Position numbers and translations under genes: made by a program. The notes beneath the pieces were generated by a model. The model was not told where the DNA came from. It ran no database searches and saw nothing but the letters and a program-made list of their open reading frames with translations. Shown here one piece after another: positions 8,852-37,407 of a stretch of 64,000 bases of DNA (within the stretch, counting starts at the first letter, position 1; each line of letters starts with the position of its first letter). The stretch is from Burkholderiales bacterium Ga0077544 (GTDB lineage Bacteria > Pseudomonadota > Gammaproteobacteria > Burkholderiales > Burkholderiaceae_D), in contig LNEU01000027.1 of assembly GCA_001464355.1 (NCBI GenBank), positions 1 through 64,000 of the forward strand. The letters are read 5' to 3'.

Positions 8852-8856
8852 TTAAT

Positions 8857-19418: not shown

Positions 19419-20318
19419 ATGATCAAGACACCTCATCAATTGCAGGATGCCGCAAGAATGCAGCATTCGCAGACGCCGCGTCTGACCAGCAATCAGATTG
19501 GTAGCATCCTGATCGATAGCGGCCGCCTGACGGCAGACGAAGCGCAAAGAATTCTGCAGGAGCAGCATGTAGGGCGTCAACGTTTCGGCGACGCCGGCAT
19601 TGCGCTCGGTTTGCTGACGCCAGCTGATATTGATTTCGCACTGTCGAACCAGTTTTCCTATCCTTACCTGATACGCGGACAAAGCAATGTCAGCGAAGAA
19701 GTCATTGCCGCCTACGATCCATTCAGCAAACAGGTGGAATCCTTGCGCGCCTTGCGCAGTCAGCTTGTGATGCGCTGGTTCGGTTCCAGCGAACAGCGCT
19801 CGGCGATGGCGATTACCAGTGCCGAGCGCGGTGACGGTCGCAGTTTCATCGCCGCTAACCTCGCCGTACTTTTTTCACAATTAGGTCAGCGCACCTTGTT
19901 GATCGATGCAGATATGCGTAATCCCAGCCAGCATCGCTTGTTCGGCATAGAAAATCGCAGCGGCCTGTCGTCGATACTTTCCGGCCGTAGTGGCGTGGCG
20001 GATATCCATCGGATCCCATCTTTGGTCGATTTGTCGATCTTGCCTAGCGGTGCGACACCGCCGAATCCGCAGGAATTGTTGGGTCGTAGCGCCTTCACCC
20101 ACATGCTGCGGGAATTCAAGGACGAGTTCGATGTAATCCTGATCGATACCCCGCCTGATCTCGACTACGCCGATAGCCAGACTGCAGCGGCACGTGCCGG
20201 CTCGGCGCTGGTGGTAGCGCGCAAGGACATCAGTCATGCCGGTGCGATCGGCAATCTGGTCGATTCGATGAAGCATGCGGGTGTCATGGTGGTGGGCGCT
20301 GTACTGAATGAATATTGA
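19419..20318 (+). CDS. epsG: EpsG-like tyrosine-kinase-type ATPase, partner of EpsF
   Basis: A 299-residue protein with two parts. Residues 20-90 resemble the N-terminal domain of type II secretion ATPases (GSILIDSGRLTADEAQRIL). The rest is a BY-kinase/ParA fold with RTLLIDADMRNPSQHRLFG (Walker A') and VILIDTPPDLDYADS (Walker B). The Walker A is SAERGDGRS (134-142), with arginine where lysine is usual. The C-terminal tyrosine cluster of classical BY-kinases is absent; the protein simply ends LNEY. It probably acts through EpsF, but autophosphorylation is doubtful. Confidence 0.88.
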   Translation: MIKTPHQLQDAARMQHSQTPRLTSNQIGSILIDSGRLTADEAQRILQEQHVGRQRFGDAGIALGLLTPADIDFALSNQFSYPYLIRGQSNVSEEVIAAYDPFSKQVESLRALRSQLVMRWFGSSEQRSAMAITSAERGDGRSFIAANLAVLFSQLGQRTLLIDADMRNPSQHRLFGIENRSGLSSILSGRSGVADIHRIPSLVDLSILPSGATPPNPQELLGRSAFTHMLREFKDEFDVILIDTPPDLDYADSQTAAARAGSALVVARKDISHAGAIGNLVDSMKHAGVMVVGAVLNEY

Positions 20319-21387
20319 GAAGAGTGAAATACAGATGCCGAATCTGGATACAAAAATGGTGAGCGACACGCAGCGTGGACGCACACACGAAGAATTGAGT
20401 GCTGCACTGATGAGCCGACACACAGTCTTGCTCGACCTGATCGGCTGCGCTCCTTTCCATTATGTCGATATTCCTACGCATGGCAATATCGGCGACCTGT
20501 TGATCATGCATGGCACGCTTGCCTTTTTTCGCAAGCACGGCCTGGTGCCGAAACTGATTGCGCCTTACTTTGCCTACGACCCACGCTGGATTGCGCCGGA
20601 AGATGTGATCGTATTTCACGGCGGCGGCAATTTTGGCGATCTGTACCCTTATTTCCAGGATCTGCGCGAAAGCATAGTGCAGAACCACAGGGAAAACAGA
20701 ATCATTGTGCTGCCGCAATCGCTGCATTTTTCTTCACCCGAGAAAATGAAGCAGTCGGCGCAACTGTTCCGCATGCATGCCGATGTGCATATCTGTGTAC
20801 GCGATCAGGTCTCGTACCAGATGGCGCAGGAATTTACCGATAACGTTTATCTATTGCCGGATATGGCGCATCAGCTGTTTCCAATGATGGCCGATGTCAG
20901 CGTGGCGTCGGAAGGCAGTTTGCGCATCAGTCGTGTTGATGATGAAAGCAGTCCGCAAGCCGGGCTGCGCAATATGGTATCGACTACGGTTACCGACTGG
21001 CCGGAGTTTGTCGGCCAGCGCGAAGTCCGTATCAACCTATTTCGTCGCGCGATAGGCGCTTTCTTCAGGCGAGGTTTGGGCTGGTCGGCCAATAGCATAT
21101 TGATGCGCTTGTGGATTGCGTATTCGGGCCGATTGGTCGCTGATGCGGCCCAATTATTTGCACGACACGAATTGATCATCACCGATCGACTGCATGGCCA
21201 CATTCTCGCTTGCCTGCTGCGCAAGCAAAACATCGTGCTCGACAACAGTTACGGAAAAAATTCACGTTACGTAGAAGCATGGACCCTCAACAGTGAGTTG
21301 GTCACGTTGCAGAAAGCAAGCGCAGCAAATACAGCAAATGCGACGACAGTGTTTACACGACACGGCCCGATGGCCGCTGCAATATAA
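20308..21387 (+). CDS. Polysaccharide pyruvyl transferase family protein
   Basis: A 359-residue protein of the CsaB/EpsO/ExoV-like family, which transfers pyruvate from phosphoenolpyruvate to sugars as a ketal. Recognisable parts are THGNIGDLLIMHGTLAFF (about residues 55-72), IVFHGGGNFGDLYPYF, IIVLPQSLHFS, DVHICVRDQ and, near the C-terminus, ITDRLHGHILACLLRKQ. The start overlaps epsG by 11 bases. An in-frame ATG at 20335 is an alternative. A pyruvyl group would add negative charge to the exopolysaccharide. Confidence 0.9.
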   Translation: MNIEKSEIQMPNLDTKMVSDTQRGRTHEELSAALMSRHTVLLDLIGCAPFHYVDIPTHGNIGDLLIMHGTLAFFRKHGLVPKLIAPYFAYDPRWIAPEDVIVFHGGGNFGDLYPYFQDLRESIVQNHRENRIIVLPQSLHFSSPEKMKQSAQLFRMHADVHICVRDQVSYQMAQEFTDNVYLLPDMAHQLFPMMADVSVASEGSLRISRVDDESSPQAGLRNMVSTTVTDWPEFVGQREVRINLFRRAIGAFFRRGLGWSANSILMRLWIAYSGRLVADAAQLFARHELIITDRLHGHILACLLRKQNIVLDNSYGKNSRYVEAWTLNSELVTLQKASAANTANATTVFTRHGPMAAAI

Positions 21388-21398
21388 GGGAGCTACTC

Positions 21399-22499
21399 TT
21401 GGCGACGATAGATGTATTACTGCCGGTTAAAAACGGCATCGATTTTCTGGCAGCTTCGCTGGACAGTATTTGCGCACAGACCTTCAAGGACTGGCGTTTG
21501 CTGGTACTCGATCACGGCTCTACCGATGGCAGTCTGGAAATGGCTGAGGATTATCACCGTCGCGATCCGCGGATACAGGTGTACAGCTTTCCCGAAGCGG
21601 AAGGCCTGGCTGGTTTATTGAATCGCGGTCTGGATATCAGCGATTGCAAATACGTGATGCGGCATGATGCCGACGATGTTTGCTTTGTCGACAGGATGGA
21701 AATAGTCCTTGCTGCGTTCAAGCGCCAGCCCGATTGCATCGCGATCAGTGGCCAATCAGAAGTGATCAATGGCGCAGGCGATATTACCGGCAACATCAAG
21801 ATGCCTATAGGCCGGAATCGTGTTGCTGCTGCGAGCTTCTTCCGCAATCCGATTACGCATCCGGCAGCAATGATGGATTTCACAGCAGTAAAAAAACTGG
21901 GTGTGCGTTACGGCGTCGACTTTCTGAATGTTTTGCCGGCTGACAAGCGCATAGAAGTGAATGCGTTGGCTGAGGATTACTTCATGTTCGGGCAGTTGGC
22001 AATACTCGGCAAGTGTACAAATGTACCGTCGCAACTGATTCAATATCGGTGGCATGGCAGCAATGTCAGTGCCACCCGTTTTCGCGAGCAGGTCGAAGTG
22101 TCGCTGGCGATCTCGCGTTATCTCGCACGTTCATTCAGCACCATGCATGGTTTGCCGTATTTCGATCCGGCACCATTCTGCAATCACGGCGGCATATTGT
22201 TCGATGTGGAAGGGCAAACTGATTTCTCAGATGCCTTTGAGCGTATGGCTTACACCCTGCGCCGTGGCCTCGGTGCATCTGAAGAACTGGAACGTGAGTT
22301 GGCTTTCCGCAAAATGGCAAGCACGCGTCAGGATGCACGTCTGTTGTGGCGCTACTTCCGTTTTCAGTCGCGCAATGCGCCGGAAACCGGCGAGTGGAAT
22401 GCGATTCGCTCGTGGCTGATCCGTCGTTTCCCTGGCAAACCGCAAATGAGCGTGGCCAGGGAATTGAATGCCGAATTCAGCGCAAGACTGGCGACGTAA
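21399..22499 (+). CDS. Glycosyltransferase family 2
   Basis: A 366-residue cytoplasmic enzyme starting at TTG (21399) after AAGGGAG. The GT-A fold shows in IDVLLPVKNGIDFLAASLDS, LDHGSTDGSLEMAEDY and the DXD-like RHDADDV (about residue 88-94). An acidic base candidate lies in ALAEDYFMFGQL. It would add one sugar of the repeat unit to the undecaprenyl-linked chain. Sugar and linkage cannot be predicted. Confidence 0.88.
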   Translation: MATIDVLLPVKNGIDFLAASLDSICAQTFKDWRLLVLDHGSTDGSLEMAEDYHRRDPRIQVYSFPEAEGLAGLLNRGLDISDCKYVMRHDADDVCFVDRMEIVLAAFKRQPDCIAISGQSEVINGAGDITGNIKMPIGRNRVAAASFFRNPITHPAAMMDFTAVKKLGVRYGVDFLNVLPADKRIEVNALAEDYFMFGQLAILGKCTNVPSQLIQYRWHGSNVSATRFREQVEVSLAISRYLARSFSTMHGLPYFDPAPFCNHGGILFDVEGQTDFSDAFERMAYTLRRGLGASEELERELAFRKMASTRQDARLLWRYFRFQSRNAPETGEWNAIRSWLIRRFPGKPQMSVARELNAEFSARLAT

Positions 22500-22504
22500 A
22501 ACGC

Positions 22505-24010
22505 ATGCAAACCGAATCGACCACCAACGGAATCGACAGTAAAGTGCATGCGCGCTGGGTGCCGGCTGCATCCGACGCTTATGCCGTGCTGACGGTGGTT
22601 GTGCTGGCTGTGGTGATGGGTATCATCGTGCCTTTTTATACCGATGTAATGGATTACAAACTGGCACGCTTGTTGGTGCTGCCGGCGGTCCTCGTGTTCG
22701 GTTTTCTGTTGATATTCAATCGGCTGTTATTGCTGACCTTGATCATTTTGTTCAGGTCTACCGGCGATGTGATTCTTGAGTCAACCCGCTTTTCCCTGGG
22801 TGGTTATGAAACCGGCGTCGGCGGCTTGATCAATCTGTGCGTGATCATGCTGGCCTGCATGCTGGTGTTTGAAAAACCGGCGCGCTTGCCGAAAAAAATG
22901 GCCTTGTCGTGGGTGCCGTTCTTGCTGGTGGCTTTGTTCGGCGTGGTGATCTCGCCGGAAAAAGGCGATGCGATCCGCACCTATCTGACCTTGCTGTCTT
23001 ACTTCGGGATGTTTGTTATCGCGTTTTACTTTGTTCATTCAAACAAGGATTTCCGTCACTCGATCAAACTGGTTTTGTGGTCGTCGGTGGTGCCGGCGTT
23101 GTATGCGCTGGTGGATATTGCCTTGAACGGTGCTGCGGTTGGGCTGGAAGGATTCCGCCTGCAATCCACCTTTACGCATCCAAACATTTTTGCGTTCTAT
23201 CTGACATTGATGATTCCCTTGACCTTGTATGTGCTCAAGGACAAGGGATCGCCGTTGAAGAGCGGCAGCCGCGTGGCTTTGACTTTATACATGGTGTATT
23301 TGCTGGCCTTGCTGGTCTTGACACAAACCAGAAGTGCGTGGCTTGCCTTGCTGATCGTGTTCGTCGCGTATGCGGTCCTGTTTGAACGTCGTTACCTGTT
23401 GTACCTGATGCTGCTGCCGGTTGTCGCATTGTTTATTCCGGAAATACGTGATCGTTTGATGGATCTTGGTAGCGGCAACGCAGCGGTCGGTTATGCCAAG
23501 CTGAATTCATTTGCGTGGCGTCTGTCGATCTGGGAGAGCGGCCTGCAATGGATGCGACCCAGTCATTATGTATATGGATACGGGCTGGAAGCTTTCCGCC
23601 ATTATTCGCAAACCTTTTTTCCGGCTGCCGGCAATATAAAGTGGGGTGCGCACAATGTGTATGTCCAATGGTTTTTTGACGCCGGGATTCTCGGCTTGTG
23701 CGCTTACCTGTTCCTGTATGCGCGAGTAGCGATGATGTTGAAGTCGCTGGCGAAGATAGACAAGCTGGCAGCCTTCGTCACCTTGAGCGTGGTATTCATC
23801 TATCTGGTCGTGTCGTCGTCGGACAATATTTTCGGTTATCTGGTGTTTAACTGGTACTTCTGGTTCACCGTCGGCATAGGCTGTGCACTGGCTGCCAGCG
23901 CATTTCCAGCTATCAAAAAAACAGCTGGCGCCCCGCATGCACCACTTCATCCACGGCATGCTGCCACTGAGCCTCATCTGTATTCCGCCCCAGCGCCGAG
24001 GCAATCATGA
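22505..24010 (+). CDS. O-antigen ligase/polymerase family membrane protein (Wzy-like)
   Basis: A 501-residue protein with about 11-12 transmembrane segments and one large periplasmic loop (YVYGYGLEAFRHYSQTFFP). The Wzy_C-type motif LTQTRSAWLALLIVF precedes it, and HNVYVQWFFDAGILGL follows it. Such proteins polymerise repeat units or ligate them to an acceptor. As the only one in the locus it is most likely the polymerase. The ATG at 22505 lies 5 bases after the upstream stop; longer in-frame versions would start inside the preceding gene. Confidence 0.85.
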   Translation: MQTESTTNGIDSKVHARWVPAASDAYAVLTVVVLAVVMGIIVPFYTDVMDYKLARLLVLPAVLVFGFLLIFNRLLLLTLIILFRSTGDVILESTRFSLGGYETGVGGLINLCVIMLACMLVFEKPARLPKKMALSWVPFLLVALFGVVISPEKGDAIRTYLTLLSYFGMFVIAFYFVHSNKDFRHSIKLVLWSSVVPALYALVDIALNGAAVGLEGFRLQSTFTHPNIFAFYLTLMIPLTLYVLKDKGSPLKSGSRVALTLYMVYLLALLVLTQTRSAWLALLIVFVAYAVLFERRYLLYLMLLPVVALFIPEIRDRLMDLGSGNAAVGYAKLNSFAWRLSIWESGLQWMRPSHYVYGYGLEAFRHYSQTFFPAAGNIKWGAHNVYVQWFFDAGILGLCAYLFLYARVAMMLKSLAKIDKLAAFVTLSVVFIYLVVSSSDNIFGYLVFNWYFWFTVGIGCALAASAFPAIKKTAGAPHAPLHPRHAATEPHLYSAPAPRQS

Positions 24011-24990
24011 GCTCGATACCCAGACTGGAAGTGCTGGATGGCTGGCGCGGCGTCAGCATCCTGTGTGTCCTGGCAGCGCACTTGTTGCCTATGGGTCCCA
24101 AGGTCTTGCAACTGAATGCGATGTTCGGTCTGCTCGGGATGGCGCTGTTTTTTACCTTGTCCGGTTTTTTGATCACATCTTTCTTGCTGAAGAATCCGAC
24201 CACGCTGGATTTTCTGGTGCGGCGTTTTTTTCGCATCATCCCGCTGGCCTGGCTCTATCTATTGATTGCATTGGCGATAGCCGGTGCCTCATCGGATACC
24301 TGGTTTGCACATTATTTTTTCTACGCCAATCTGCCACCCAAGCATCTGGTGCCCTTGACTGATCATATCTGGAGCTTGTGCCTGGAGATGCAGTTTTATG
24401 TCGGCATTGCATTGATGTACGCACTGTTTGGCGTGCGCAGCCTGCTGGCGATTCCTGTAATTGCCATCCTGTTCACCCTGCTGCGCGTCAGCGATGGCGT
24501 GTATGCATCCAGTGTCAGTTATTACCGCATCGATGAAATTCTGGCCGGTTGTACGCTCGCGCTGATTTATCACAAGCGACTGGATCCACGTTTGATGGAT
24601 TGGATCAGAAAAATTCCGCAGGGTTTGCTGCTGATATTGCTGCTTATCTCTTGCCACGAAGCAGGCGCAGCGATGAATTATGTGCGCCCTTATCTTGCTG
24701 CGTTGCTGATAGGTAGCACCATCGTTCATCCAACGCGCGCACTTGCTCCCTGGCTGAATAACCGTGTGCTGGTTTATCTGGCCGCAACTTCATACGCACT
24801 GTATGTGATCCATCCTTTGCTGGCCGGAACCTGGTTGGGAAGCGGTGATGTAATCGTCAAGTATCTGAAACGGCCTTTGCTGTTCATCGTCCTGTTCGCG
24901 CTCGCGCATCTGTCGACTTTTTATTATGAGCATTGGTGGATGGCGAACGGCAAGAGCCTGATCAAGAAATTGAAGTTGAAGGCCGCCTGA
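24007..24990 (+). CDS. Acyltransferase family 3 membrane protein
   Basis: A 327-residue protein with about ten transmembrane helices, opening LEVLDGWRGVSILCVLAAHLL. That is the OafA/acyltransferase-3 signature with its catalytic histidine in AAHLLP. RRFFRIIPLAWLY provides the conserved arginines and HPLLAGTWLG lies near the end. It would O-acetylate or O-succinylate the exopolysaccharide using an acyl donor from the cytoplasm. The start overlaps the previous stop (ATGA). Confidence 0.9.
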   Translation: MSSIPRLEVLDGWRGVSILCVLAAHLLPMGPKVLQLNAMFGLLGMALFFTLSGFLITSFLLKNPTTLDFLVRRFFRIIPLAWLYLLIALAIAGASSDTWFAHYFFYANLPPKHLVPLTDHIWSLCLEMQFYVGIALMYALFGVRSLLAIPVIAILFTLLRVSDGVYASSVSYYRIDEILAGCTLALIYHKRLDPRLMDWIRKIPQGLLLILLLISCHEAGAAMNYVRPYLAALLIGSTIVHPTRALAPWLNNRVLVYLAATSYALYVIHPLLAGTWLGSGDVIVKYLKRPLLFIVLFALAHLSTFYYEHWWMANGKSLIKKLKLKAA

Positions 24991-25027: not shown

Positions 25028-26530
25028 ATGCGCATCAAGTTGAATCACCATATTGTTTATTCATCGTCACTATTGCTAGCGGCAGGAGTTGTGCTGACTG
25101 CAGCGATTGCGCTGCCTGCAAATGCCAGCGAACTATCTGCAGCTAAAAACTCAAAGAAAACTTCCGACTCTGCGTCAGCCAGCGCAAATAACAAACAGGC
25201 AGCATGGGGTACGTATCAAAAACCATTTTCCGCTAGCTCGCCGTGGAATAGTCGACCCGTCAATCCTGCGTTTGGCGATTTTGTCATTCCAAAATCGACT
25301 TACTCGCCCGGTGTTGCTGGCGGGGAGTGGTCGACTGGCGTATTTCTCGCGAATGCCGGCGATGCACCTATGACGGTTACCGGCTTGCCTAAGACAAAAG
25401 GCTTGTGGGATCCGGATGCAGAGGCTTTTCATGATGTGACCGTGCCGCGCTGGCCGTCCGATGTGGTCGCCGCAAGTGCCAGCGATGGCCACGCCGACAT
25501 CGTCGATCCGGTAACCGGTATCGTGCATTCGTTCTGGCAGTTGAAGAAAGTAGATGGAAAATGGGTAGCCGCACAATATGCGTGGACGCGCATAGACGGG
25601 CGCGGCTGGGGCGATCCCGCACATTACTTCCAGGGCTCGCGTGCGGCGGGCGTGCCGACCGCAGCCGGTTTGATACGCAAGCACGAGGTAAATGACGGCG
25701 ACACCATGTATCGCCACGCGTTGGCGATGTCGCTGACTTTCAATGCCCTGTCATCAAATCCTACCTACGTGTTTCCGGCGACGTCGGCCGATACCAATGC
25801 CGCAAGCACCAACACAGGAAAAATTCCTGAAGGTGCATTGATGATGTTGCCGGCCTCGTATGACACGCAAAAAATTGTCAATCCAGATTTACGCAAGGTC
25901 GCAGAGACCTTGAAAACGTATGGCGCGTATGTCGTCGATCGTAACTTTGGTACACCGTTTTTTATCTATGTGGAAAACGGCGCCGGCTTCGATTTGCATA
26001 AAGGCGGCTGGAACAAGATCGTGGCGGATGATCTGGAGCGCATGCGCTTTGCGATGCGTCAGGTGGTGTCGGTGCAGTCGTGGGTAGACGGCAATGAGAA
26101 ACCGGTAGTGCCGCAGAAAAAATTCAATCTGCTCTCGATGCGCGGCCCGTGGCAGTTACCGGACGGGACTACCGCAGGCAATTTCGATACATGGCAACAG
26201 GCGGTGTTGTTTCCTGCTACCAGTACACGTATCACGCAAATCAATTATTCATCGCAAGGTTTGCATCCACTGGCATGGATAGGACCGGAAGTCGGCAAGA
26301 CTTATCGCATAACTGCACAGGCCAGCGGTGATGCAAAGTTGCGTTTGCAAGTGCGCGAGCCGTCCGCATCATCAGTTTCTTTCGATAGCGGTGAATTGAA
26401 GAACGGCGAAAGCAAAACGTTCAACTGGCCGTCCAAGACTGCGATTGTCACCGTGCATGCAATCAGCGGCGTAGGCGGGCCGTCGACAGTGCGCGGCGAA
26501 TTGCTGTTACAGGATGGATCCAACAGATGA
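25028..26530 (+). CDS. Large secreted protein of unknown function within the exopolysaccharide locus
   Basis: A 500-residue protein with an N-terminal signal peptide (hydrophobic to about residue 34, ending LPANASE) and a Ser/Lys/Asn-rich linker. A globular domain spans about residues 58-330. It has many aromatic and acidic residues (SSPWNSRPVN, GEWSTGVFLANA, VPRWPSDVVAAS, GHADIVDPVTG, WGDPAHYFQGSRAAG, TYGAYVVDRNFGTPFFIYVENG). A C-terminal beta-sandwich-like part follows (about 400-495, TYRITAQASGDAKLRLQV). I do not recognise a catalytic signature. The plan, a globular domain plus a carbohydrate-binding-like module, suggests a polysaccharide-binding or processing protein; this is inference. 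Confidence 0.8.
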   Translation: MRIKLNHHIVYSSSLLLAAGVVLTAAIALPANASELSAAKNSKKTSDSASASANNKQAAWGTYQKPFSASSPWNSRPVNPAFGDFVIPKSTYSPGVAGGEWSTGVFLANAGDAPMTVTGLPKTKGLWDPDAEAFHDVTVPRWPSDVVAASASDGHADIVDPVTGIVHSFWQLKKVDGKWVAAQYAWTRIDGRGWGDPAHYFQGSRAAGVPTAAGLIRKHEVNDGDTMYRHALAMSLTFNALSSNPTYVFPATSADTNAASTNTGKIPEGALMMLPASYDTQKIVNPDLRKVAETLKTYGAYVVDRNFGTPFFIYVENGAGFDLHKGGWNKIVADDLERMRFAMRQVVSVQSWVDGNEKPVVPQKKFNLLSMRGPWQLPDGTTAGNFDTWQQAVLFPATSTRITQINYSSQGLHPLAWIGPEVGKTYRITAQASGDAKLRLQVREPSASSVSFDSGELKNGESKTFNWPSKTAIVTVHAISGVGGPSTVRGELLLQDGSNR

Positions 26531-28358: not shown

Positions 28359-29539
28359 CCTTGCTGTATAGCGCAATCATTGTCGTGCTGGTATTGGCGG
28401 CCTTGCCGGTTGCCGTTCTGCTGGTGCAGGCGCTGGCGGCGTTAAAACGCACGCGTGTGACTTCACTGCCAACCGAATGGCGTCCCGGCGTTGCCGTGAT
28501 CGTGCCTGCACATAATGAAGCGCAAGACATTTCTGCCACGATCGCTGCCATACGCGAGCAACTGCGGGAGGGTGATCGACTTGTGGTCGTTGCGGATAAC
28601 TGTACGGATGACACGGCTACGGTAGCACTGCTTGCCGGCGCGACCGTGCTTGCGCGCTGCAATCTGGAACAACGCGGCAAGGGCTTTGCACTTGACTACG
28701 GTGTGCGGCATCTCGCGCATAGTCCACCCGATATCGTGATCATGATCGATGCTGATTGCCAATTGCTGCCTGGTTCCATAGACAGGCTCGCCTGTCTGGC
28801 GATGACGACGCAAAGGCCGGTACAGGCGCTCGATCTGATGCAGGCCAAAAAAAATGCCGGCTTGAAAATGAGGATTGCCGAGTTTGCATGGATAGTCAAA
28901 AACCATGTGCGTCCACTGGGCTTTGCAAGATTAGGTTTGCCCTGTCAGTTAATGGGCACAGGCATGGCGTTTCCATGGGCCTTGATAGAGAAAGCCGGAT
29001 TGGCAAATGGCAATCTGGCGGAAGACATGCAATTGGGAATAGAGATGGCACGCAAAAATGCGGCGCCGATTTTTTGCCCCGATGCGTGCGTGATCAGTTA
29101 CTTCCCTGAGGGTGAAGAAGCGGCGCGCATGCAAAGAACGCGTTGGGAGCATGGCCACATCAGCATGATTATTCACCATGGTTTTCCCTTGCTGATTCAA
29201 GGTCTGCGTCGCGGTGATCGGATGTTGATCGCGATGGCGCTGGATATGTGCGTGCCGCCTGTAGCCTTGCTGACCCTGGTGACGCTTGTGTTGTTCATCG
29301 GCGCCTCGATTACTTACTTCATGTTTGACTGGCTTGCGCCTCTGCTTCTCGCCAGCATCAGTCTGCTCGGATTGACTTTTGCGGTGCTACTGGCATGGCA
29401 ACGCTTCGCGCGTCATGTCGTCAGCCTGAACGATTTGTTATCCGCCTTGAGTTATGTCTTCTGGAAGCTGCCTTTATATCTGAAGTTTTTTATCAGCCGT
29501 CAGGTGGAATGGGTGAGGGCTAAGCGCGATGCAGACTAA
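28352..29539 (+). CDS. Membrane glycosyltransferase family 2
   Basis: A 395-residue protein with one N-terminal membrane helix, a GT-A domain and two or three C-terminal helices. Motifs are VAVIVPAHNEAQDISATI, VVADNCTDDTATVA, the DXD in IVMIDADCQ and the QRTRWEHGH (Q-X-X-R-W) motif near residue 260. This layout resembles processive or cellulose-synthase-like GT2 enzymes, though such membrane enzymes also act once per repeat unit. It overlaps its upstream neighbour by 7 bases and its downstream neighbour by 11. Confidence 0.9.
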   Translation: MVTLLYSAIIVVLVLAALPVAVLLVQALAALKRTRVTSLPTEWRPGVAVIVPAHNEAQDISATIAAIREQLREGDRLVVVADNCTDDTATVALLAGATVLARCNLEQRGKGFALDYGVRHLAHSPPDIVIMIDADCQLLPGSIDRLACLAMTTQRPVQALDLMQAKKNAGLKMRIAEFAWIVKNHVRPLGFARLGLPCQLMGTGMAFPWALIEKAGLANGNLAEDMQLGIEMARKNAAPIFCPDACVISYFPEGEEAARMQRTRWEHGHISMIIHHGFPLLIQGLRRGDRMLIAMALDMCVPPVALLTLVTLVLFIGASITYFMFDWLAPLLLASISLLGLTFAVLLAWQRFARHVVSLNDLLSALSYVFWKLPLYLKFFISRQVEWVRAKRDAD

Positions 29540-30761
29540 TTACCTATGGCGAGAGCCGGCAGCAGATGGCGATGCAAGCAGAGATGCAAACAGCCATGCC
29601 GAGAACGCCGCGATCAACACGATCAGCACGGATTTTCAACGGCCTGTCTATTGCATACTCGGCTTGCCCTTCGATGCGACTACTGTGGAGCAGGCAACGG
29701 CAAGCATTATCAATGCGGCGCGCAGTCATCAACGCTGCTTCTTTTCCACGCCGAATCTGAACTTCGCGGTGGCCAGTCTGGATGGCGGCGCATTCCGCGA
29801 TTCCGTCATACGCAGCGATTTGTCGGTAGCGGATGGCATGCCACTGGTGTGGATTGCCAAACTGCTGGGATTGCCGATCACCGAGCGCGTAGCTGGCTCT
29901 GCCTTGTTCGAGGCTTTGCGTAACCGGCCGGGCAAAGTATTGCTGGTGTATTTCTTTGGCGGCCCCGATGGTGTCGCAGAGATTGCGGCCGAAAAATTGA
30001 ATGCGAGCGCATCGGGTTTGGTCGCTGTTGGATATCAGTCGCCCGGTTTTGCCAGTGTCGAGGAAATGAGCAGCGAAGCAATCATCAAAGACATCAATGA
30101 CAGCAAGGCAGATTTTCTGGTGGTCGCATTGGGTGCAAAAAAAGGGCAGGCGTGGATAGAACACAATTTGTCGCGCCTGCAAGTACCCGTCGTCAGTCAT
30201 TTGGGTGCAGTGGTGAATTTTGTAGCAGGCACAGTAAAACGTGCACCGGCCTGGGTAGGTTCACTTGGTGGTGAATGGTTATGGCGCATCAAGGAAGAGC
30301 CAGCCTTGTGGAAACGTTACCTCAATGATGGTCTAACGCTGCTCAAGCTGATGACGCTGCATGTGATTCCCTGTGCGCTGACGACGCGACTGTACAAACG
30401 GGACAAGCATGCAGTCGCCAATGCGCGTGTATCGCTGACTGTGCAGGGAAGTCACTGCATCATCAAGGCAAGTGGCGCATGGGAAGACAGCAATCTGCAA
30501 CCTCTGCGCGAGATATTTGCCAGTGCGACGGCGACGCCATTTCACATACAGCTCGATTTTTCTGAAGTCACACATATCGACAGCGCATGCATCGCCTTGT
30601 TGATGCTCTTGTATGGGCATCAATCAAAAATCAAGCATGGATTCTCTTTAAGAAAGACGAGACCCGAGATCAAACGTTGTTTGCGCTTGTTCTGTGCGGA
30701 CTACCTGCTGGAATACAAGAGTGAAGCATGTGAGCAATCCGTGCACATGGCGACGCAGTGA
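29529..30761 (+). CDS. WecB/TagA/CpsF glycosyltransferase fused to a C-terminal STAS domain
   Basis: A 410-residue protein. Residues about 40-275 are a GT26 (WecB/TagA/CpsF) domain, seen in FFSTPNLNFAVAS, SVADGMPLVWIAKLLG, VYFFGGPDGVAEIAA, LVVALGAKKGQAWI and HLGAVVNFVAGTVKRAP. Residues about 310-405 form a STAS fold (HIQLDFSEVTHIDSACIALLMLL), where the DS at about 351-352 matches the regulatory Ser region of anti-anti-sigma factors. The GT would add N-acetylmannosamine, a glucuronic-type sugar or a similar residue to the lipid-linked chain. The STAS part suggests phosphorylation or partner control, by inference. Plain family members are about 250 residues. Confidence 0.88.
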   Translation: MQTNYLWREPAADGDASRDANSHAENAAINTISTDFQRPVYCILGLPFDATTVEQATASIINAARSHQRCFFSTPNLNFAVASLDGGAFRDSVIRSDLSVADGMPLVWIAKLLGLPITERVAGSALFEALRNRPGKVLLVYFFGGPDGVAEIAAEKLNASASGLVAVGYQSPGFASVEEMSSEAIIKDINDSKADFLVVALGAKKGQAWIEHNLSRLQVPVVSHLGAVVNFVAGTVKRAPAWVGSLGGEWLWRIKEEPALWKRYLNDGLTLLKLMTLHVIPCALTTRLYKRDKHAVANARVSLTVQGSHCIIKASGAWEDSNLQPLREIFASATATPFHIQLDFSEVTHIDSACIALLMLLYGHQSKIKHGFSLRKTRPEIKRCLRLFCADYLLEYKSEACEQSVHMATQ

Positions 30762-30979: not shown

Positions 30980-31999
30980 ATGAAAATACTGGTAACGGGA
31001 GGAGCTGGTTACATCGGTTCCCACACTTGCGTGGAATTGATCAAGGCCGGTTATCAAGTCGTCGTGGTCGACAATCTTTGCAACAGCAAAGCTTCAGTAC
31101 TGGAACGCGTCGCCACGATTACAGGAACGACAGTACCTTTCGTGCAAGCAGATTTGCGCGATCGTCCACGGATGGAAAAAATATTCGAGCAACATCGCTT
31201 CGACGCTGTGATGCATTTCGCCGGCTTGAAAGCGGTCGGTGAATCGGTCGCTGAACCCTTGCGCTATTACGACAATAATGTCGAAGGCAGTCTGGTGTTA
31301 TTTCAGGTCATGGCGCAGTTTGGCGTGAAAAATCTGGTCTTCAGTTCATCCGCTACCGTGTACGGCGATCCTGCAACAGTACCGATACGGGAAAATTTTC
31401 CGTTGGTGGCAACCAATCCTTACGGCCGCAGCAAGTTGATGATCGAAGACATGCTGCGCGATGTAGCTATCTCAGATGCAGGATGGCGCGTTGCTTTGCT
31501 GCGTTACTTCAATCCGGCCGGCGCGCATGAGAGCGGCTTGATAGGCGAAGATCCTAACGACATACCCAACAATCTCTTTCCATATGTGGCGCAAGTTGCA
31601 TCTGGCAGACGCGAGTTGTTGTCAGTGTATGGCGATGATTACCCGACTAACGATGGCACCGGGGTACGCGATTACATCCATGTGGTGGATCTGGCGATAG
31701 GTCATGTCAAGACGCTGACTAAATTGATGGCGAGCGAATCTGGTGTACAGGCTTATAACCTTGGCACAGGTTGCGGCAGCAGCGTGCTGCAAATGATCAA
31801 GGCATTCGAGCGCGCCAGTGGACGTGCCGTTCCTTATCGCGTAGTGGCGCGCAGACCTGGCGATATTGCTGTTTGTTATGCCGACGCATCCCTGGCCAGA
31901 AATGAACTGGGCTGGTCGGCGCAGCGCACTATCGAACAGATGTGCATCGATACCTGGCGCTGGCAAAGCTCGTCGGAAGAACACTTCGCTTATGCCTGA
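30980..31999 (+). CDS. galE: UDP-glucose 4-epimerase
   Basis: A 339-residue short-chain dehydrogenase fold enzyme interconverting UDP-glucose and UDP-galactose. The NAD site is VTGGAGYIGSHT (residues 4-15). The catalytic Ser/Tyr/Lys are in FSSSATVYG and NPYGRSK, and RYFNPAGAHESG is the usual downstream block. Length is normal for GalE. It supplies UDP-galactose for the exopolysaccharide. Confidence 0.95.
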   Translation: MKILVTGGAGYIGSHTCVELIKAGYQVVVVDNLCNSKASVLERVATITGTTVPFVQADLRDRPRMEKIFEQHRFDAVMHFAGLKAVGESVAEPLRYYDNNVEGSLVLFQVMAQFGVKNLVFSSSATVYGDPATVPIRENFPLVATNPYGRSKLMIEDMLRDVAISDAGWRVALLRYFNPAGAHESGLIGEDPNDIPNNLFPYVAQVASGRRELLSVYGDDYPTNDGTGVRDYIHVVDLAIGHVKTLTKLMASESGVQAYNLGTGCGSSVLQMIKAFERASGRAVPYRVVARRPGDIAVCYADASLARNELGWSAQRTIEQMCIDTWRWQSSSEEHFAYA

Positions 32000-32116: not shown

Positions 32117-33292
32117 ATGAAAGCAATGATACTTGCAGCCGGCAAAGGAACCCGCGTCCAGCCCCTCACTTATGAATTGCCTAAACCGATGATTCCGATA
32201 ATCGGCAAGCCGGTCATGGAATATCTGGTCGAGCATCTGGTCAAATACGGCGTTAAAGAAATTATGGTGAACGTCAGCTATCTGCATCAAAAGATAGAAG
32301 ACTATTTCGGTGAAGGCCAGCGTTTCGGAGCGCAGATAGGTTATTCGTTTGAAGGCTATATGACCGACGACGGTGAGGTCATGCCCAAGCCTATCGGCTC
32401 CGCCGGCGGCTTGAAAAAAATACAGGAATTCGGCGGCTTCTTTGATGAAACCACGCTCGTCATTTGCGGCGATGCCTTGATCGATCTGGATATCCAATCC
32501 GCATTGTTTGAACACAAGCGCAAAGGCGCGATGGTCAGCATCATCACCAAAGAAGTTGATCGCGAAAAGACTGTTGATTACGGCATGGTAGTCACCGATG
32601 AAGAAGGCCGGGTGCTTTCATTCCAGGAAAAACCCAAGCCGGAAGATGCCTTGTCCAATCTTGCCAGTACCGGCATTTACATCTTCGAGCCGGAAGTGCT
32701 GGATATGATTCCATCCGGCGTAGAGTTCGATATCGGTTCGCAACTGTTCCCATTGCTGGTAGAGAAGGGCGTACCTTTCTTCGCACAAAAGCGCTTCTTC
32801 AACTGGATAGATATCGGCAATGTTAAAGATTACTGGGCGGTATCGCAAAGCGTGATGCTGGGCGAGATGGCGCACATGACCATGCCCGGTACGCAGATCG
32901 CAGAAGGTGTATGGGCCGGCCTCAATGTCAGTATCGATTGGGAAGGCACGACAATAGAAGGCCCTGTTTATATCGGCTCAGGTAGCACGATAGAAGCTGG
33001 TAGCACCATCATAGGGCCAACCTGGATAGGCCATGGCAGCCAGATCTGCAGCGGTTCCAGAGTCGAGCGCAGCATCCTATTTGAGTACACGCGTGTATCG
33101 CCGCATTCCAGCATGTCTGAGCTGGTCGTTTGTACCGATTACTGCGTCAGCCGTGAAGGCAAGATGCGCCATGTGTCTGATTGCGTCGAAGATGCCTGGC
33201 GCGATGCGCGTGATCGTCGTGGTACGACACGTCCGGCGGCTGAGTCGGCGATGCCAGATATCCCGGTGCGCAAGCTAGAGGATGCTGCGTGA
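32117..33292 (+). CDS. NDP-sugar pyrophosphorylase with left-handed beta-helix domain
   Basis: A 391-residue enzyme making a nucleotide sugar from a sugar 1-phosphate. The N-terminal nucleotidyltransferase carries the activation loop LAAGKGTRVQPLTYELPKPM (residues 6-25), ICGDALIDLD and FQEKPKPEDAL. The C-terminal part has hexapeptide repeats (GPVYIGSGSTIEAGSTIIG). It resembles GDP-mannose or glucose-1-phosphate pyrophosphorylases of the ManC/GlmU-like branch; the nucleotide cannot be fixed from sequence. It overlaps the manC start by 4 bases (GTGA). Confidence 0.85.
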   Translation: MKAMILAAGKGTRVQPLTYELPKPMIPIIGKPVMEYLVEHLVKYGVKEIMVNVSYLHQKIEDYFGEGQRFGAQIGYSFEGYMTDDGEVMPKPIGSAGGLKKIQEFGGFFDETTLVICGDALIDLDIQSALFEHKRKGAMVSIITKEVDREKTVDYGMVVTDEEGRVLSFQEKPKPEDALSNLASTGIYIFEPEVLDMIPSGVEFDIGSQLFPLLVEKGVPFFAQKRFFNWIDIGNVKDYWAVSQSVMLGEMAHMTMPGTQIAEGVWAGLNVSIDWEGTTIEGPVYIGSGSTIEAGSTIIGPTWIGHGSQICSGSRVERSILFEYTRVSPHSSMSELVVCTDYCVSREGKMRHVSDCVEDAWRDARDRRGTTRPAAESAMPDIPVRKLEDAA

Positions 33293-34707
33293 AGATTTAT
33301 CCTATCATTTTGTCTGGTGGTTCCGGTAGCCGATTGTGGCCGTTGTCGCGTGCCGCCTTGCCCAAGCAATTATTGCCTCTGGTTTCTGAGCATACGATGT
33401 TGCAGGAAACCGTATTGCGTGTCGCTGATTGGGACGAGGTCGCCGCACCGCTGATTGTCTGCGGCAACGATCATCGCTTTTTGGTGGCTGAACAATTACG
33501 CCAGATTGACGTCACGCCGACCGCGATCTTGCTTGAAGCGGAAGGCCGTAATACGGCGCCGGCCGTTGCGGTGGCGGCGAATTATTTGCTTGCACGAGAT
33601 CCCGATGCCTTGATGCTGGTATTGCCGGCAGATCATTTGATTCTTGATCCTGATGCATTTCATAACGCGGTACTTCGCGCTGCGAATGCGCTCGGTACCA
33701 ATGCATTGGCAACCTTCGGTATCGTGCCTTCCAGTGCAGAAACCGGTTACGGCTATATACGGCGCGGTGCCGCGATTGATGAATCCGGTCGCTGTTTTAA
33801 AGTAGAAAAATTTGTTGAAAAACCTGATCTTGCAACAGCAGCAGGTTTTATTGCAGATGAACGTTATTCATGGAATAGCGGTATGTTTCTGTTTCGCGCC
33901 GATGTCTATCTGGCTGAGCTTGAGCGTCTGCAGCCGGAGATGGCGGTATGCAGCAAAGCTGCAGTCGACGATGCGTATGGCGATCTATCCTTCTGCCGTT
34001 TGAATGAGGCTGCGTATGCAGCATGCCCTGCGCAATCGATAGATTTTGCAGTGATGGAACATACGCAACAGGCGATCGTCATCCCGGTTGATATAGGCTG
34101 GAGCGATGTCGGTTCCTGGTCGGCCTTGTCCGATATGCAGGATGGCAATGCAGAAGAGAATGTGCTGCATGGCGATATCTATACCGACAATGTGCAAAAT
34201 TCTCTGATCCGTGCTGAAAGTCGCTTTGTCGCGGTGATCGGACTCGATAATGTGGTCGTGGTCGAGACCAAGGATGCAGTCCTGATAGTTGATAAAGATC
34301 AAGTGCAACGCGTCAAGAACGTTGTCGATTTTCTGAAGCAAAAAAAACGCTGCGAACATTTGAATCACACACGTGTATACCGACCGTGGGGTTCGTATGA
34401 ACCTATCGATGCCGGTGAACGCTTTCAAGTCAAACGCATCACCGTCGATCCCGGCGAAAAATTGTCATTGCAAATGCATCACCATCGCGCCGAACACTGG
34501 GTTGTTGTCACGGGTACCGCGCGCATCACCTGCGGCGACACCGTCAAGTTGCTGACAGAAAACGAATCCATTTATATCCCGATAGGTATGACACACAGGC
34601 TGGAAAATCCCGGCAAGATGCCGCTGCATCTGATCGAAGTGCAATCGGGCGCTTATCTTGGTGAAGATGACATCGTGCGTTTCGATGATGTTTATCAACG
34701 GGCGTGA
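33289..34707 (+). CDS. manC: Mannose-1-phosphate guanylyltransferase / mannose-6-phosphate isomerase
   Basis: A 472-residue bifunctional type II enzyme (AlgA/XanB/CpsB group) that makes GDP-mannose and isomerises fructose-6-phosphate to mannose-6-phosphate. The GTG start at 33289 gives MKIYPIILSGGSGSRLWPLS, the guanylyltransferase signature, with FVEKPDLATA further on. The C-terminal cupin isomerase has RPWGSYEPID, QMHHHRAEHWVVVTGTA and PIGMTHRLENPG. GDP-mannose, or fucose derived from it, is therefore a probable building block of the polymer. Confidence 0.95.
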   Translation: MKIYPIILSGGSGSRLWPLSRAALPKQLLPLVSEHTMLQETVLRVADWDEVAAPLIVCGNDHRFLVAEQLRQIDVTPTAILLEAEGRNTAPAVAVAANYLLARDPDALMLVLPADHLILDPDAFHNAVLRAANALGTNALATFGIVPSSAETGYGYIRRGAAIDESGRCFKVEKFVEKPDLATAAGFIADERYSWNSGMFLFRADVYLAELERLQPEMAVCSKAAVDDAYGDLSFCRLNEAAYAACPAQSIDFAVMEHTQQAIVIPVDIGWSDVGSWSALSDMQDGNAEENVLHGDIYTDNVQNSLIRAESRFVAVIGLDNVVVVETKDAVLIVDKDQVQRVKNVVDFLKQKKRCEHLNHTRVYRPWGSYEPIDAGERFQVKRITVDPGEKLSLQMHHHRAEHWVVVTGTARITCGDTVKLLTENESIYIPIGMTHRLENPGKMPLHLIEVQSGAYLGEDDIVRFDDVYQRA

Positions 34708-34717
34708 GGGAATGATA

Positions 34718-35965
34718 ATGGACTTAACAGACACCCCCTTTGTGAATGAAAAGAACAATCCCTTCGTCACGCATGATGAAAAATCTGCGGAAGGAAAATT
34801 GATCGTTCAATTACACGAGCAACGCATAGATGGTCGCGTCACACGTATTGCCACGTTCGGCGATCAACAAGTCTGGTGGGAAATGGCCGGGCCGAATGAA
34901 AGTCTGCCGCCGCCTTTGGTCGCACACGATATGGCCGCAACTGCATTGGTCTTTGTCGCGATGCATAGAGGCCAGGATATGCATATCGATGGTCCTGTTA
35001 CCTTTTCATTATTAAGAAATCTGGAAGATCTGATCGCATGCTGGGTCGCATGGCGACCGGATCTATATCGTCATATTAATGTCAGTGCGACGCGTGAATT
35101 GGCGGATGACGCGATTCGCATGCCGCCGACACCGCAAGCAGTGGCTGCATTTTCAGGCGGACTGGATGCATCCTTCACTGCATGGCGGCATGTAACCGGG
35201 CGCGCAGGACGCCGCAGTTATCACTTGCTGGCAGGTGTCTTGATTCAGGGTTTCGATATCGCGCTGAATGCCGATGCGGCGTTCGCGATCACCACCGCTT
35301 CTGCGGCTGACTCCCTGCAATCGATCAATGTACCCATGGTGACGTTGAAGACCAACTGGCGCGATGTGGCATGCGTCAATTGGGAAATGGAATTCGGCAA
35401 CGGTGTTGCCACTTGTTTGCGTAACTGGCAAGGCAGCGCACATGCGGGGCTGGTCGGTTCCGATGAAGACTACACACGTTTGGTACTGCCATGGGGCGGC
35501 AACCCGATCACGTACGCGATGTTGTCCAGCCGCGATTTTCAGATTGTGTATGACGGCGGTGAATTTGCCCGTACTGAAAAAGCCGAACGCATCCTCGATT
35601 GGGAAACCGGCTTGCGTAATTTACGCGTCTGCTGGGAAGGGCCGCTGACAGGACACAACTGCGGTCGCTGCGAAAAATGTTTGCGTACCAAACTCAACTT
35701 CATGGCCGTCGGTGCCGCATTGCCGGAATCACTGGCAGGTCGACCCACCGATGCGCAGATACGCGCACTGCGTGCCGGCAACCATGCGCAATTGGTGCTG
35801 CTGGACGAGATCGTGCAGATCGCCGAGAAGCGCAAGATCACTGATCCGTGGGTCAGTGCATTGAAGCTGACGATACGCAAGAATCGCTTCCTGAATAAAT
35901 TCTCTTTCTTTGATGCGACCAGGCGAGTGCTTGGAAAAATAAAGCGCACACTGGTGTCGCGATGA
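34718..35965 (+). CDS. PP-loop ATP pyrophosphatase-like protein of unknown function
   Basis: A 415-residue protein. The N-terminal ~130 residues are unassigned. Then comes AAFSGGLDASFTAWRH (about residues 147-162), the SGGxDS/T PP-loop that adenylates a carboxyl or carbonyl group in QueC, asparagine synthase and N-sugar amidotransferases. Later, HNCGRCEKCLRT (about 322-333) has three cysteines that could bind zinc, as in QueC. The reaction is unknown; amidation or thiolation of a sugar or cofactor is an inference from context. The ATG at 34718 has GAGG 8 bases upstream. The stop overlaps the flippase start. Confidence 0.78.
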   Translation: MDLTDTPFVNEKNNPFVTHDEKSAEGKLIVQLHEQRIDGRVTRIATFGDQQVWWEMAGPNESLPPPLVAHDMAATALVFVAMHRGQDMHIDGPVTFSLLRNLEDLIACWVAWRPDLYRHINVSATRELADDAIRMPPTPQAVAAFSGGLDASFTAWRHVTGRAGRRSYHLLAGVLIQGFDIALNADAAFAITTASAADSLQSINVPMVTLKTNWRDVACVNWEMEFGNGVATCLRNWQGSAHAGLVGSDEDYTRLVLPWGGNPITYAMLSSRDFQIVYDGGEFARTEKAERILDWETGLRNLRVCWEGPLTGHNCGRCEKCLRTKLNFMAVGAALPESLAGRPTDAQIRALRAGNHAQLVLLDEIVQIAEKRKITDPWVSALKLTIRKNRFLNKFSFFDATRRVLGKIKRTLVSR

Positions 35966-37407
35966 AGAATATGCGGCGCGTGGTGCCGTGGGCTATCGTT
36001 GATAGCGTCGGCGTCGGCTTGCTTGGTTTTGTTACGCTGGCCATCATGACACGCGTACTGACACCTACCGATTTCGGCAGCGTCGCATTTGCACAATCCA
36101 TCGTCGTTCTGACACAACTCGTTATCGGTCTGGGTATCAACGAGGCGCTAATACAGCGCCGACCGATAGACATGCTGCACATCGATAGCGCGTTCTGGAT
36201 GTCTATCGTGCTTGGCTTGTCCGGCTTTGTATTTTGTTTGCTGGTCGGCTTGTACTTTATCTATTTCATGCAACAGCCTTTGGTCGGCACTATCCTGATG
36301 ATTGAAGGTAGTGCGTGTCTATTTACCGGTTTGAATCTGTTGCCCTCCGCGATGCTGGATCGCAAGCTGCGTACCAAGGCAATCGCCAGGCGCACGGTCG
36401 CCGGCAAGTTGAGTTACTGCTTTGTCGCCATCGGTCTGGCATTGACCGGTTTTGGTGTCTGGAGCATCGTGATTGCCGGCATCGTGCAGAACCTTTTGTT
36501 GACCCTGATTTTTTGGCGGGGACACAAGCGCAAGCCTTTGCGCCGCTTTTCCTGGAGTCATGCAAAGCAGCTGATCGTGTTCGGCTTCCCTGTCATGCTG
36601 GAAGGCGCGCTGTGGGCTTTCCTGACGCGTGTATTCAGCTTGTTGATCGGAGCACTGCATGGCTTGAGCATGCTGGGTTTTGTCAGTGTGGCATTCAAGG
36701 CCACCGATGCCTTATCAAATATTGTGGGCAGCGTCGCGGGCCGCATCGGCTTGCCTTTGTTCTCGTCCATGCAAAAAGATAAAGAGCGTTTGCAAAGTTC
36801 TTTTCTGCAGGTGACGGAAGTGATGGCCTTCGTTTCTACGCCTATCTTTGTCGGTTTGGCATTGACGACAGGGCAGTGGGTGCCTTTGCTGCTCGGCGAT
36901 AAATGGTCGGAAGCGATTCCTATGATCGTGATTCTGTGTCTGGTGTGGGCGATCAGCTTTACGCGTGTATTTGTCAGTCCATACTTGCGTGCGCTGGGTT
37001 ATCCGCGTGCCTTGCTATTGCCAGCAGTGTGTGCGAGTGCATGCACGATCGCAGCGGTGTTTCTGACTGCGAACCAATCGGCGATCACCATCATCGCTGC
37101 ATGGTCATGTCGCGTGCTGGTGACGTATCCGCTTGGTCTTTATCTATTGCGTAAATATGCGCACATCGGTTTCCGCCGACAGTTGCAACCCTTGCTCACG
37201 CCGTTCTTTTGCGTGTTCGTGATGGCGACCTGTGTGGAAGCGGCGCAGATGGCAATTGCGGATGTCGGCTGGTCTAACCTTGCGGTACTGATGCTGTCTG
37301 TGACTGTCGGTGTTATCAGTTACGCCGCAGTTGTATTGCTGATGTATCGCAAGGCATTGCCGGATATGCTGGCCAACTGGCGCAGTGGTGAATTGAAAAG
37401 CCGCTAA
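35962..37407 (+). CDS. Wzx-type polysaccharide flippase (MOP superfamily)
   Basis: A 481-residue protein with 12-14 predicted membrane helices. It opens RRVVPWAIVDSVGVGLLGFVT and then TRVLTPTDFGSVAFAQS, a run typical of WzxC/RfbX-like exporters (LxPxDFG). It moves the finished undecaprenyl-linked repeat unit to the periplasmic face for polymerisation. It is the last gene of the plus-strand locus and meets the minus-strand PAP2 gene head to head. Confidence 0.92.
   Translation: MKNMRRVVPWAIVDSVGVGLLGFVTLAIMTRVLTPTDFGSVAFAQSIVVLTQLVIGLGINEALIQRRPIDMLHIDSAFWMSIVLGLSGFVFCLLVGLYFIYFMQQPLVGTILMIEGSACLFTGLNLLPSAMLDRKLRTKAIARRTVAGKLSYCFVAIGLALTGFGVWSIVIAGIVQNLLLTLIFWRGHKRKPLRRFSWSHAKQLIVFGFPVMLEGALWAFLTRVFSLLIGALHGLSMLGFVSVAFKATDALSNIVGSVAGRIGLPLFSSMQKDKERLQSSFLQVTEVMAFVSTPIFVGLALTTGQWVPLLLGDKWSEAIPMIVILCLVWAISFTRVFVSPYLRALGYPRALLLPAVCASACTIAAVFLTANQSAITIIAAWSCRVLVTYPLGLYLLRKYAHIGFRRQLQPLLTPFFCVFVMATCVEAAQMAIADVGWSNLAVLMLSVTVGVISYAAVVLLMYRKALPDMLANWRSGELKSR

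Follow-up and report, generated by a model that had tools for sequence, protein, structure and literature searches.

The QueC fold is described as having been adapted for phage defense from a role in tRNA modification, and QueC itself as using ammonia, in the available sections of PMC13329287. The QatC protein of the qatABCD anti-phage system is reported to lack the deazaguanine residues of QueC (PMC13279940 and PMC13329287, sections available) and to carry a cysteine pattern of its own, C-x19-CGxCxxRR (PMC13329287, same sections), and Cap9 of type IV CBASS is presented there as a protein of ~185 amino acids that keeps variants of the QueC motifs (PMC13329287). PP-loop enzymes have been described in glycan pathways as well. 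WbpS, an amidotransferase of the asparagine synthase type, converts a uronic acid of a glycan into the uronamide and is called nonessential in the accessible part of PMC7468200. The tetracysteine motif of the NASAT enzymes, given as CxxC-Xn-[GN]xCxxC, occurs in proteins of polysaccharide loci (PMC10607449, accessible part). A 2026 survey of the QueC family places WbpG-type sugar amidotransferases in one cluster, which is its sugar-modifying cluster (PMC13329287, sections available).

Here, we analyzed a stretch of 64,000 nucleotides from Burkholderiales bacterium Ga0077544 (hereafter, the window), which contains an exopolysaccharide cluster of 19 genes, all on the plus strand (positions 14473–37407). 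The cluster begins with genes for a porin, a Bac_transf initiator, Wza, Wzz, and an EpsG kinase, followed by a polysaccharide pyruvyltransferase of the PS_pyruv_trans family (PST; 20308–21387, the sole match in the genome), glycosyltransferases, Wzy (a Wzy_C/O-antigen ligase-type protein at 22346–24010 whose real start is probably further in), and acyltransferases, among them an Acyl_transf_3 protein (24007–24990). The second part encodes a protein without assignment, a WecG-family glycosyltransferase with a STAS domain (29529–30761), a GalE-like NAD-dependent sugar epimerase (30980–31999), two nucleotidyltransferases, the protein studied here, and a Wzx-type flippase (35962–37407). One nucleotidyltransferase carries hexapeptide repeats (32117–33292); the other is a mannose-1-phosphate guanylyltransferase/mannose-6-phosphate isomerase of the ManC type (33289–34707). 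A 500-residue protein encoded at 25028–26530, whose start resembles a signal peptide by eye, is kept in the cluster within the genus and has no Pfam or NCBIfam match.

The penultimate gene of the cluster (34718–35965, plus strand) has a stop-free translation of 415 amino acids. An alternative in-frame ATG lies two codons upstream, at 34712. Ten bases separate the ManC-type stop from the start of the gene, its stop codon overlaps the Wzx start by 4 bases, and its G+C content differs little from that of the cluster (0.538 and 0.530, respectively). Of the 12 other genomes in the genus, 7 encode orthologs with 73 to 92% identity (8 of 13 have the gene when the window genome is included), which excludes a chance open reading frame (ORF). 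The initial annotation had read this gene as a PP-loop protein with SGGLDAS and CGRCEKC motifs, and the translation bears it out: SGGLDAS occupies residues 146–152 (codons at 35153–35173) and CGRCEKC residues 315–321. The latter completes a tetracysteine arrangement, C305-x9-C315-x2-C318-x2-C321 (codons at 35630–35680), which by its QueC-type pattern would be expected to bind zinc. The protein consists of an N-terminal domain (residues ~24–135), a PP-loop core (~136–345), and C-terminal helices (~345–415).

A scan of genome contigs yielded 274 relatives. The best 80 of these 274 were retained and come from Alpha-, Beta-, and Gammaproteobacteria, cyanobacteria, planctomycetes, Bacteroidetes, Akkermansia, Nocardioides, and others; genes in relatives were called as longest ORFs, and their starts and gene ranks are approximate. 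The window protein was aligned with 79 of 85 candidate ORFs of relatives (L033, L040, L054:2980, L078:8607, L080:11046, and L096 were left out; L037, L085, and L095 fell short of the length for candidates). At L037, the Cupriavidus copy (L037:10067-11247) is split across two frames, perhaps by a frameshift or a sequencing error. In a sample of 398 genomes across phyla, the family was found sporadically, in 11 genomes at E = 0.001, one of them with a marginal fragment; six of the 11 had two to four matches per genome.

All 80 aligned sequences share S146, G147, G148, D150, G178, D180, W222, and R285, as well as C305, N314, C315, C318, and C321; position 288 is lysine in 73 and arginine in 7. 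The SGGxD loop is thus present in 80 of 80, with the strict SGGxDS form in 37 and SGGLDA in the window protein. The pattern C-x(8-12)-C-x2-C-x2-C is found in every sequence, with a first gap of nine residues in 74; the same gap is seen in 27 of 29 control QueC sequences. The three motifs typical of QueC, YxQxHxxE, VPxRN, and YPDC, were found in 0, 1, and 0 of the 80 sequences, respectively, and none in the window protein, compared to 29, 28, and 29 of the 29 controls. Since the controls (29 sequences from 31 loci) were selected by SGGxDS and the cysteine pattern, these three motifs are the part of the comparison for which they serve as a fair control. Where the QueC motifs would stand, the family consensus has HGFDI, TNxR, the invariant W222, PWGSxPxTD, and HDGxxxxRxEK.

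The window protein resembles QueC in its PP-loop core, SGGxD loop, and x9 cysteine spacing but is ~190 residues longer, lacks the three motifs, is encoded among polysaccharide genes, and falls below Pfam thresholds: it scored 11.8 bits against QueC (PF06508; cutoff, 22) and 17.8 bits against DUF6395 (PF19932; cutoff, 25), the latter match covering residues 302–334, the NCGxCxKC region. At E = 0.01, DUF6395 weakly touched 22 and QueC 11 of the 80 aligned members. No paper on DUF6395 was found in the open-licence PubMed Central literature. A housekeeping QueC is ruled out, as the genome encodes a separate canonical QueC (C26:355081-355749; 227.7 bits); housekeeping orthology, which the initial annotation had named as a test of its reading, therefore does not refute it. 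The invariance of SGGxD, R285, and the cysteines together with the absence of the QueC motifs suggests that the ATP chemistry is probably retained, while the substrate is probably not 7-carboxy-7-deazaguanine.

An AlphaFold model of the window protein built with the 80 sequences was confident (pLDDT of 92.8 and pTM of 0.89) and places the SGGxD loop in a predicted Rossmann-like core, a feature of the PP-loop superfamily. In VIA-align, the top match was QatC (9y02_B; Z of 13.9, rmsd of 5.1, 296 aligned residues spanning 24–392 of the model; a second QatC structure, 9y01_B, gave a Z of 13.7), ahead by just ~1 Z unit of QueC (3bl5; Z of 12.9, rmsd of 3.2, 180 aligned; 2pg3, Z of 12.8) and followed by Cap9 (Z of 12.0). 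The structural likeness is that found by VIA-align; Foldseek alone gave no match below E = 1e-3. Searches of Protein Data Bank sequences with phmmer and a profile yielded nothing significant (best E of 0.23 and 0.21). Comparison with a profile of the 29 QueC sequences gave a probability of 95 if the alignment was forced across the trimmed core and of 69 locally, in the cysteine region; with the genome's own QueC alone, it was 12.5. When folded alone, the N-terminal domain (34781–35125 of the window, residues 22–136; pLDDT of 94.3) matched RNase H-like folds at a middling level (best Z of 5.3), perhaps reflecting a common arrangement, and the 50 matches listed did not include QatC. Overall, assignment to the QueC-like PP-loop ATP pyrophosphatases is well supported.

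QatC resembles the window protein in size and may also resemble it in the sequence that flanks the QueC core on both sides, and it likewise lacks the deazaguanine motifs. The structural match to QatC, which spans residues 24–392 of the model, raises the question of QatC- or Cap9-like protein modification, in which the enzyme would tag the N terminus of a protein encoded in the cluster. The protein substrates of the defense systems, QatB and CD-NTase, begin with MG (PMC13279940, sections available); none of the 19 cluster proteins does so as called, start codons being approximate. The PADLOC QatC model matched none of the 80 members at E = 0.01, the NCBIfam QatC model NF041925 matched one weakly (E of 0.0047) and not the window protein, and the C-x19-CGxCxxRR zinc variant was found in none of the 80. 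The operon partners QatA (KAP ATPase) and QatD (TatD) are absent from the other 18 cluster genes, and the neighbors in the window are polysaccharide rather than Qat defense genes. On the basis of sequence models, cysteine pattern, and operon, membership in QatC is rejected despite the similar overall structure, and we consider protein modification very unlikely. Cap9 shares the QueC-fold core, but variants of the QueC motifs are missing from the family studied here (YPDC in 0 of 80) and no CD-NTase is encoded in the cluster, which argues against CBASS membership.

The same features were compared with the glycan enzymes. WbpG, PseA, and LpNASAT combine a PP-loop with a tetracysteine in polysaccharide loci, as does the window protein, and the model also matched the folds of LarE, MnmA/TrmU, and ThiI; an amidino-sugar synthase of the WbpG/PseA type or a sulfur transferase could therefore be envisaged. 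The amidine chemistry of the former differs from the one that we propose below. The NASAT cysteine pattern occurs in 1 of 80 members, which is not the window protein, and the WbpG-cluster pattern in none; the four cysteines follow QueC spacing and not that of a three-cysteine Fe-S site. The ammonia partner of WbpG/NASAT enzymes is of the HisH/HisF type. No such partner was found among the cluster genes scanned, and Pfam, at E = 0.001, reported no glutaminase domain for the 18 remaining genes of the cluster. NCBIfam, which presumably includes a WbpG-type model, gave no match to the window protein at E = 10. Membership in the WbpG/NASAT group is rejected on the cysteine pattern, and we regard an amidino-sugar synthase or sulfur transferase as highly improbable. 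WbpS, WbqG, and PGN_1234 belong to a different PP-loop branch, and membership is rejected here as well, since no Asn_synthase, GATase_7, or glutaminase Pfam match was found in the window protein at E = 10. They may nevertheless work alike, as dispensable PP-loop enzymes that amidate a carboxylate of a glycan.

The initial annotation is partly supported. Its likeness to QueC is seen in the QueC-type signature of all 80 sequences and in the VIA-align match, its remarks that the protein differs from WbpG and that no glutaminase is adjacent agree with the searches above, and its proposals that ATP activates a carboxylate and that the polymer is modified are probably right. The analogy with WbpG is weak, as the WbpG cysteine patterns and any NCBIfam match are missing. 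Our analysis adds the likeness to QatC, a link to pyruvyltransferases, and a congener cluster that lacks the gene.

Judged by these signatures, the protein belongs to a family of its own, unnamed, QueC/QatC-like, and widespread yet sporadic. At least two QueC-like copies lie close together in 8 of 87 loci (L054, L056, L066, L067, L078, L080, L098, and L021), and neighboring copies are also found in L136, L138, and L143 of a second sample described below; the tandem copies suggest paralogs with different substrates. In L054, a protein with Asn_synthase and GATase_7 domains is encoded near the QueC-like gene (8046-9836, minus strand). Proteins resembling it are encoded within two genes at five loci, where two kinds of PP-loop enzymes occur together.

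To characterize the genomic context, we assigned Pfam families to same-strand neighbors within two genes of the QueC-like gene. PST was the commonest family, with 26 of 119 neighbors (119 of 163, picked by hand), compared to 5 of 118 in the same count around 40 Wzx genes from other Pseudomonadota (Fisher P = 7e-5). The difference for PF00535 glycosyltransferases (GT2) was not significant (12 of 119 versus 7 of 118, P = 0.34). The Wzx control is limited to Pseudomonadota, contains several loci from some genomes, and includes two overlapping stretches (L253 and L255). Within this control (L238-L277), sulfotransferases (PF13469) made up 9 of 118 neighbors, which by eye is above expectation.

The position of PST was then counted over 81 distinct loci (82 of 88, omitting the window and L030-L034, with L022 and L052 being the same place). 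PST occupied 25 of 155 slots at ±1, 9 of 146 at ±2, 5 of 269 at ±3 to 4, and none of 488 beyond. It was found near 39 of 81 loci (40 when a locus with a fusion only is counted) and near 6 of 40 Wzx loci (P = 3e-4); after merging at 60% identity, 35 of 70 clusters had PST (P = 2e-4 versus Wzx loci). The PST profiles used for these counts were our own and were trained on PST genes of the same loci, which favors this first sample; the Pfam comparison is free of this bias. Among 21 same-strand adjacent pairs, the PP-loop gene came first in 12 and PST in 9, and 10 pairs overlapped as called by longest ORFs. Two fusions were found, with the PP-loop domain followed by PST in L021 (residues 4–369 and 386–635) and the reverse order in L096 (PST, 9–235; PP-loop, 306–644). 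At two loci, PST fused behind a GT2 domain adjoins the QueC-like gene (L080:7895-9853 and L091:7740-9911), and at L038, L047, and L093, a WecG-like match directly precedes the QueC-like gene, which PST follows. Paired trees of PST and PP-loop proteins from 38 loci showed weak codivergence (r = 0.27, permutation p = 8e-4, species phylogeny being uncontrolled).

The nearest solved structures to the window PST were Pvg1 (E = 5.7e-21) and WbbZ (E = 5.4e-7), both reported as pyruvyltransferases in the accessible text of PMC10629545, which names three motifs for proven members. The window PST carries all three. Among 43 PST proteins (including the window PST, two fusions, and two fragments), the motifs were found in 41, 37, and 31, and all three in 28, as counted by pattern with no chance control.

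The link is not uniform. In the window itself, PST lies ~13 kb upstream of the QueC-like gene and does not adjoin it, and 41 of the 81 loci, including both Methylotenera loci, have no PST in the flank covered. A second sample comprised 15 loci from nine genomes, most of them more distantly related, and PST was found near one of the 15. Two of these loci, L133 and L134, coincide in contig and position with L067 and L079 from the first sample; their removal leaves PST at 1 of 13 loci, a significantly lower share than 39 of 81 (P = 0.006). In a midpoint-rooted tree, 11 of the 15 second-sample loci fell in the half from which the window protein is absent; the 4 in the window's half all lacked PST. 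Divided by tree half, a split made after the result was seen, the 73 loci of the window's half included 35 with PST nearby, and the 30 loci of the other half included 8 (P = 0.05). Neighbors in the distant group (76 of 88 used) included 7 of 76 GT2 and 4 of 76 PST, and glycan genes were still present. Overall, part of the family shows a real link to PST, which is weaker or absent elsewhere.

Which carboxylate would the enzyme activate? The genome is rated complete, and no UDP/GDP-sugar dehydrogenase scored above the cutoff in it (four weak partial matches were seen). The central domain of these dehydrogenases (PF00984) gave no match, and no NeuB was found; control searches for the three were positive in 13, 13, and 9 of 14 genomes. 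The polymer is therefore unlikely to contain ordinary uronic or nonulosonic acids, and a uronic acid substrate is unlikely in this strain. The pyruvate ketal that PST would add thus becomes the most evident carboxylate of the polymer, although succinyl groups, Kdo, or later oxidation could provide others. The Acyl_transf_3 protein, if it adds succinate, would be one such source.

We propose the following sequence of events. Judging by its family and motifs, PST would add a pyruvate ketal to the repeat unit. As in other PP-loop families, the QueC-like protein would then bind ATP at SGGLD and adenylate the carboxylate of the ketal with release of pyrophosphate; the likeliest acceptor, in its exact form a guess, would be the 1-carboxyethylidene group of the lipid-linked repeat unit. 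Free ammonia, by analogy with QueC, or conceivably a small amine would displace AMP. The resulting amide would render the negatively charged ketal neutral, presumably before export, and the neutralized unit would be exported by Wzx, as the overlap of the two genes hints. The substrate and product of the enzyme are thus inferred. WbpS offers a precedent, from a different branch, for what may be analogous, nonessential PP-loop amidation in a glycan pathway. The wider proposal, ATP-dependent activation of a carboxylate for glycan tailoring, is likely to be correct, and the exact account, amidation of (or amine ligation to) the pyruvate ketal, is a tentative one to which we give somewhat less than an even chance. 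No amidated pyruvate ketal is known to us; a pyruvylation review (PMC6801904) shows none in its accessible part under the terms searched.

The same enzyme logic could apply to another acceptor, with a succinyl half-ester, a Kdo-like acid, or, elsewhere in the family, a uronic acid being converted to the amide; PST would then be a frequent companion since both enzymes decorate glycans. The loci that lack PST in both samples, the acyltransferase of the cluster, and the amidation of uronic acids by WbpS are consistent with this reading. The absence of NeuB and of any nucleotide-sugar dehydrogenase above the cutoff in the window genome, the occurrence of a crude UGD motif in just 1 of 82 loci, and the restriction of PST to the nearest four genes in the first sample, with two fusions, argue against it, and we think it rather unlikely. 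Alternatively, the enzyme could be a ligase that joins an amino acid, an amine, or an amino sugar to the adenylated carboxylate, creating a side chain or a cross-link. The QueC fold serves Cap9 and, according to a proposal, QatC for linking a base to the amine of a protein (PMC13279940 and PMC13329287, sections available), and the tandem copies at 8 of 87 loci would suit several amines, but no family for amino acid supply or carriage was seen among the 25 commonest neighbor families listed (101 and 78 families in total). A ligase of this kind appears distinctly improbable to us.

Of the 17 genes that run from Wza to Wzx in the cluster, 16 are present in a congener, G001, in the same order and with 67 to 96% identity, PST included (Wza is cut by the end of the stretch compared). 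The QueC-like gene is the only one missing: ~25 bases separate ManC and Wzx, and the G001 genome contains no other match at E = 0.001. The gene lies directly before Wzx in another congener (G007), two Methylotenera, and one Cupriavidus relative, which makes loss in G001 likelier than ancestral absence; support at the root of the Wzx tree is weak. Since the G001 cluster is kept without it, the gene is probably not needed to build, flip, or polymerize the unit, and its product probably tailors the polymer rather than builds it. Within the genus, PF04230 matches occur in 12 of 13 genomes and the QueC-like gene in 8 of 13, a difference that would follow if PST is able to act independently of that gene. 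Dispensability in G001, and the fact that no activity is known for the protein, would also suit a noncatalytic or regulatory protein that does no more than bind a nucleotide or a polymer precursor. The invariance of SGGxD, R285, and the four cysteines in 80 of 80 sequences and the conserved basic residue at position 288 speak against such a role, to which we assign a very slight probability. Herminiimonas-like strains with and without the gene form a natural pair for a direct test; H. fonticola has an ortholog with 92 to 93% identity.

Among the papers listed by searches of the open-licence PubMed Central literature, we found no report of a pairing of QueC-like and PST genes or of amidated pyruvate ketals. 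The family was not found in the available sections of the QueC-family survey, and no word in the text of that survey starts with polysaccharide, capsul-, pyruvyl, or glycos- (PMC13329287). The protein may work like QueC and WbpS while belonging to neither, as the defining motifs of both are absent.

Pyruvate ketals confer negative charge on surface polymers. We suggest, still more tentatively than for the window locus, that a widespread QueC-fold family rewrites the pyruvate ketals of surface polysaccharides, converting the carboxylate to an amide or an amine conjugate. If so, this would be a second, differently built QueC-like enzyme in glycan tailoring, one linked to pyruvylation, and pyruvylation would be an intermediate rather than an end point in such loci. 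Neutralized ketals could escape assays for pyruvic acid alone. A single dispensable gene would switch the charge of the polymer, and an enzyme that neutralizes ketals would alter how surface polymers adhere, bind metals, and are recognized by phages or antibodies.
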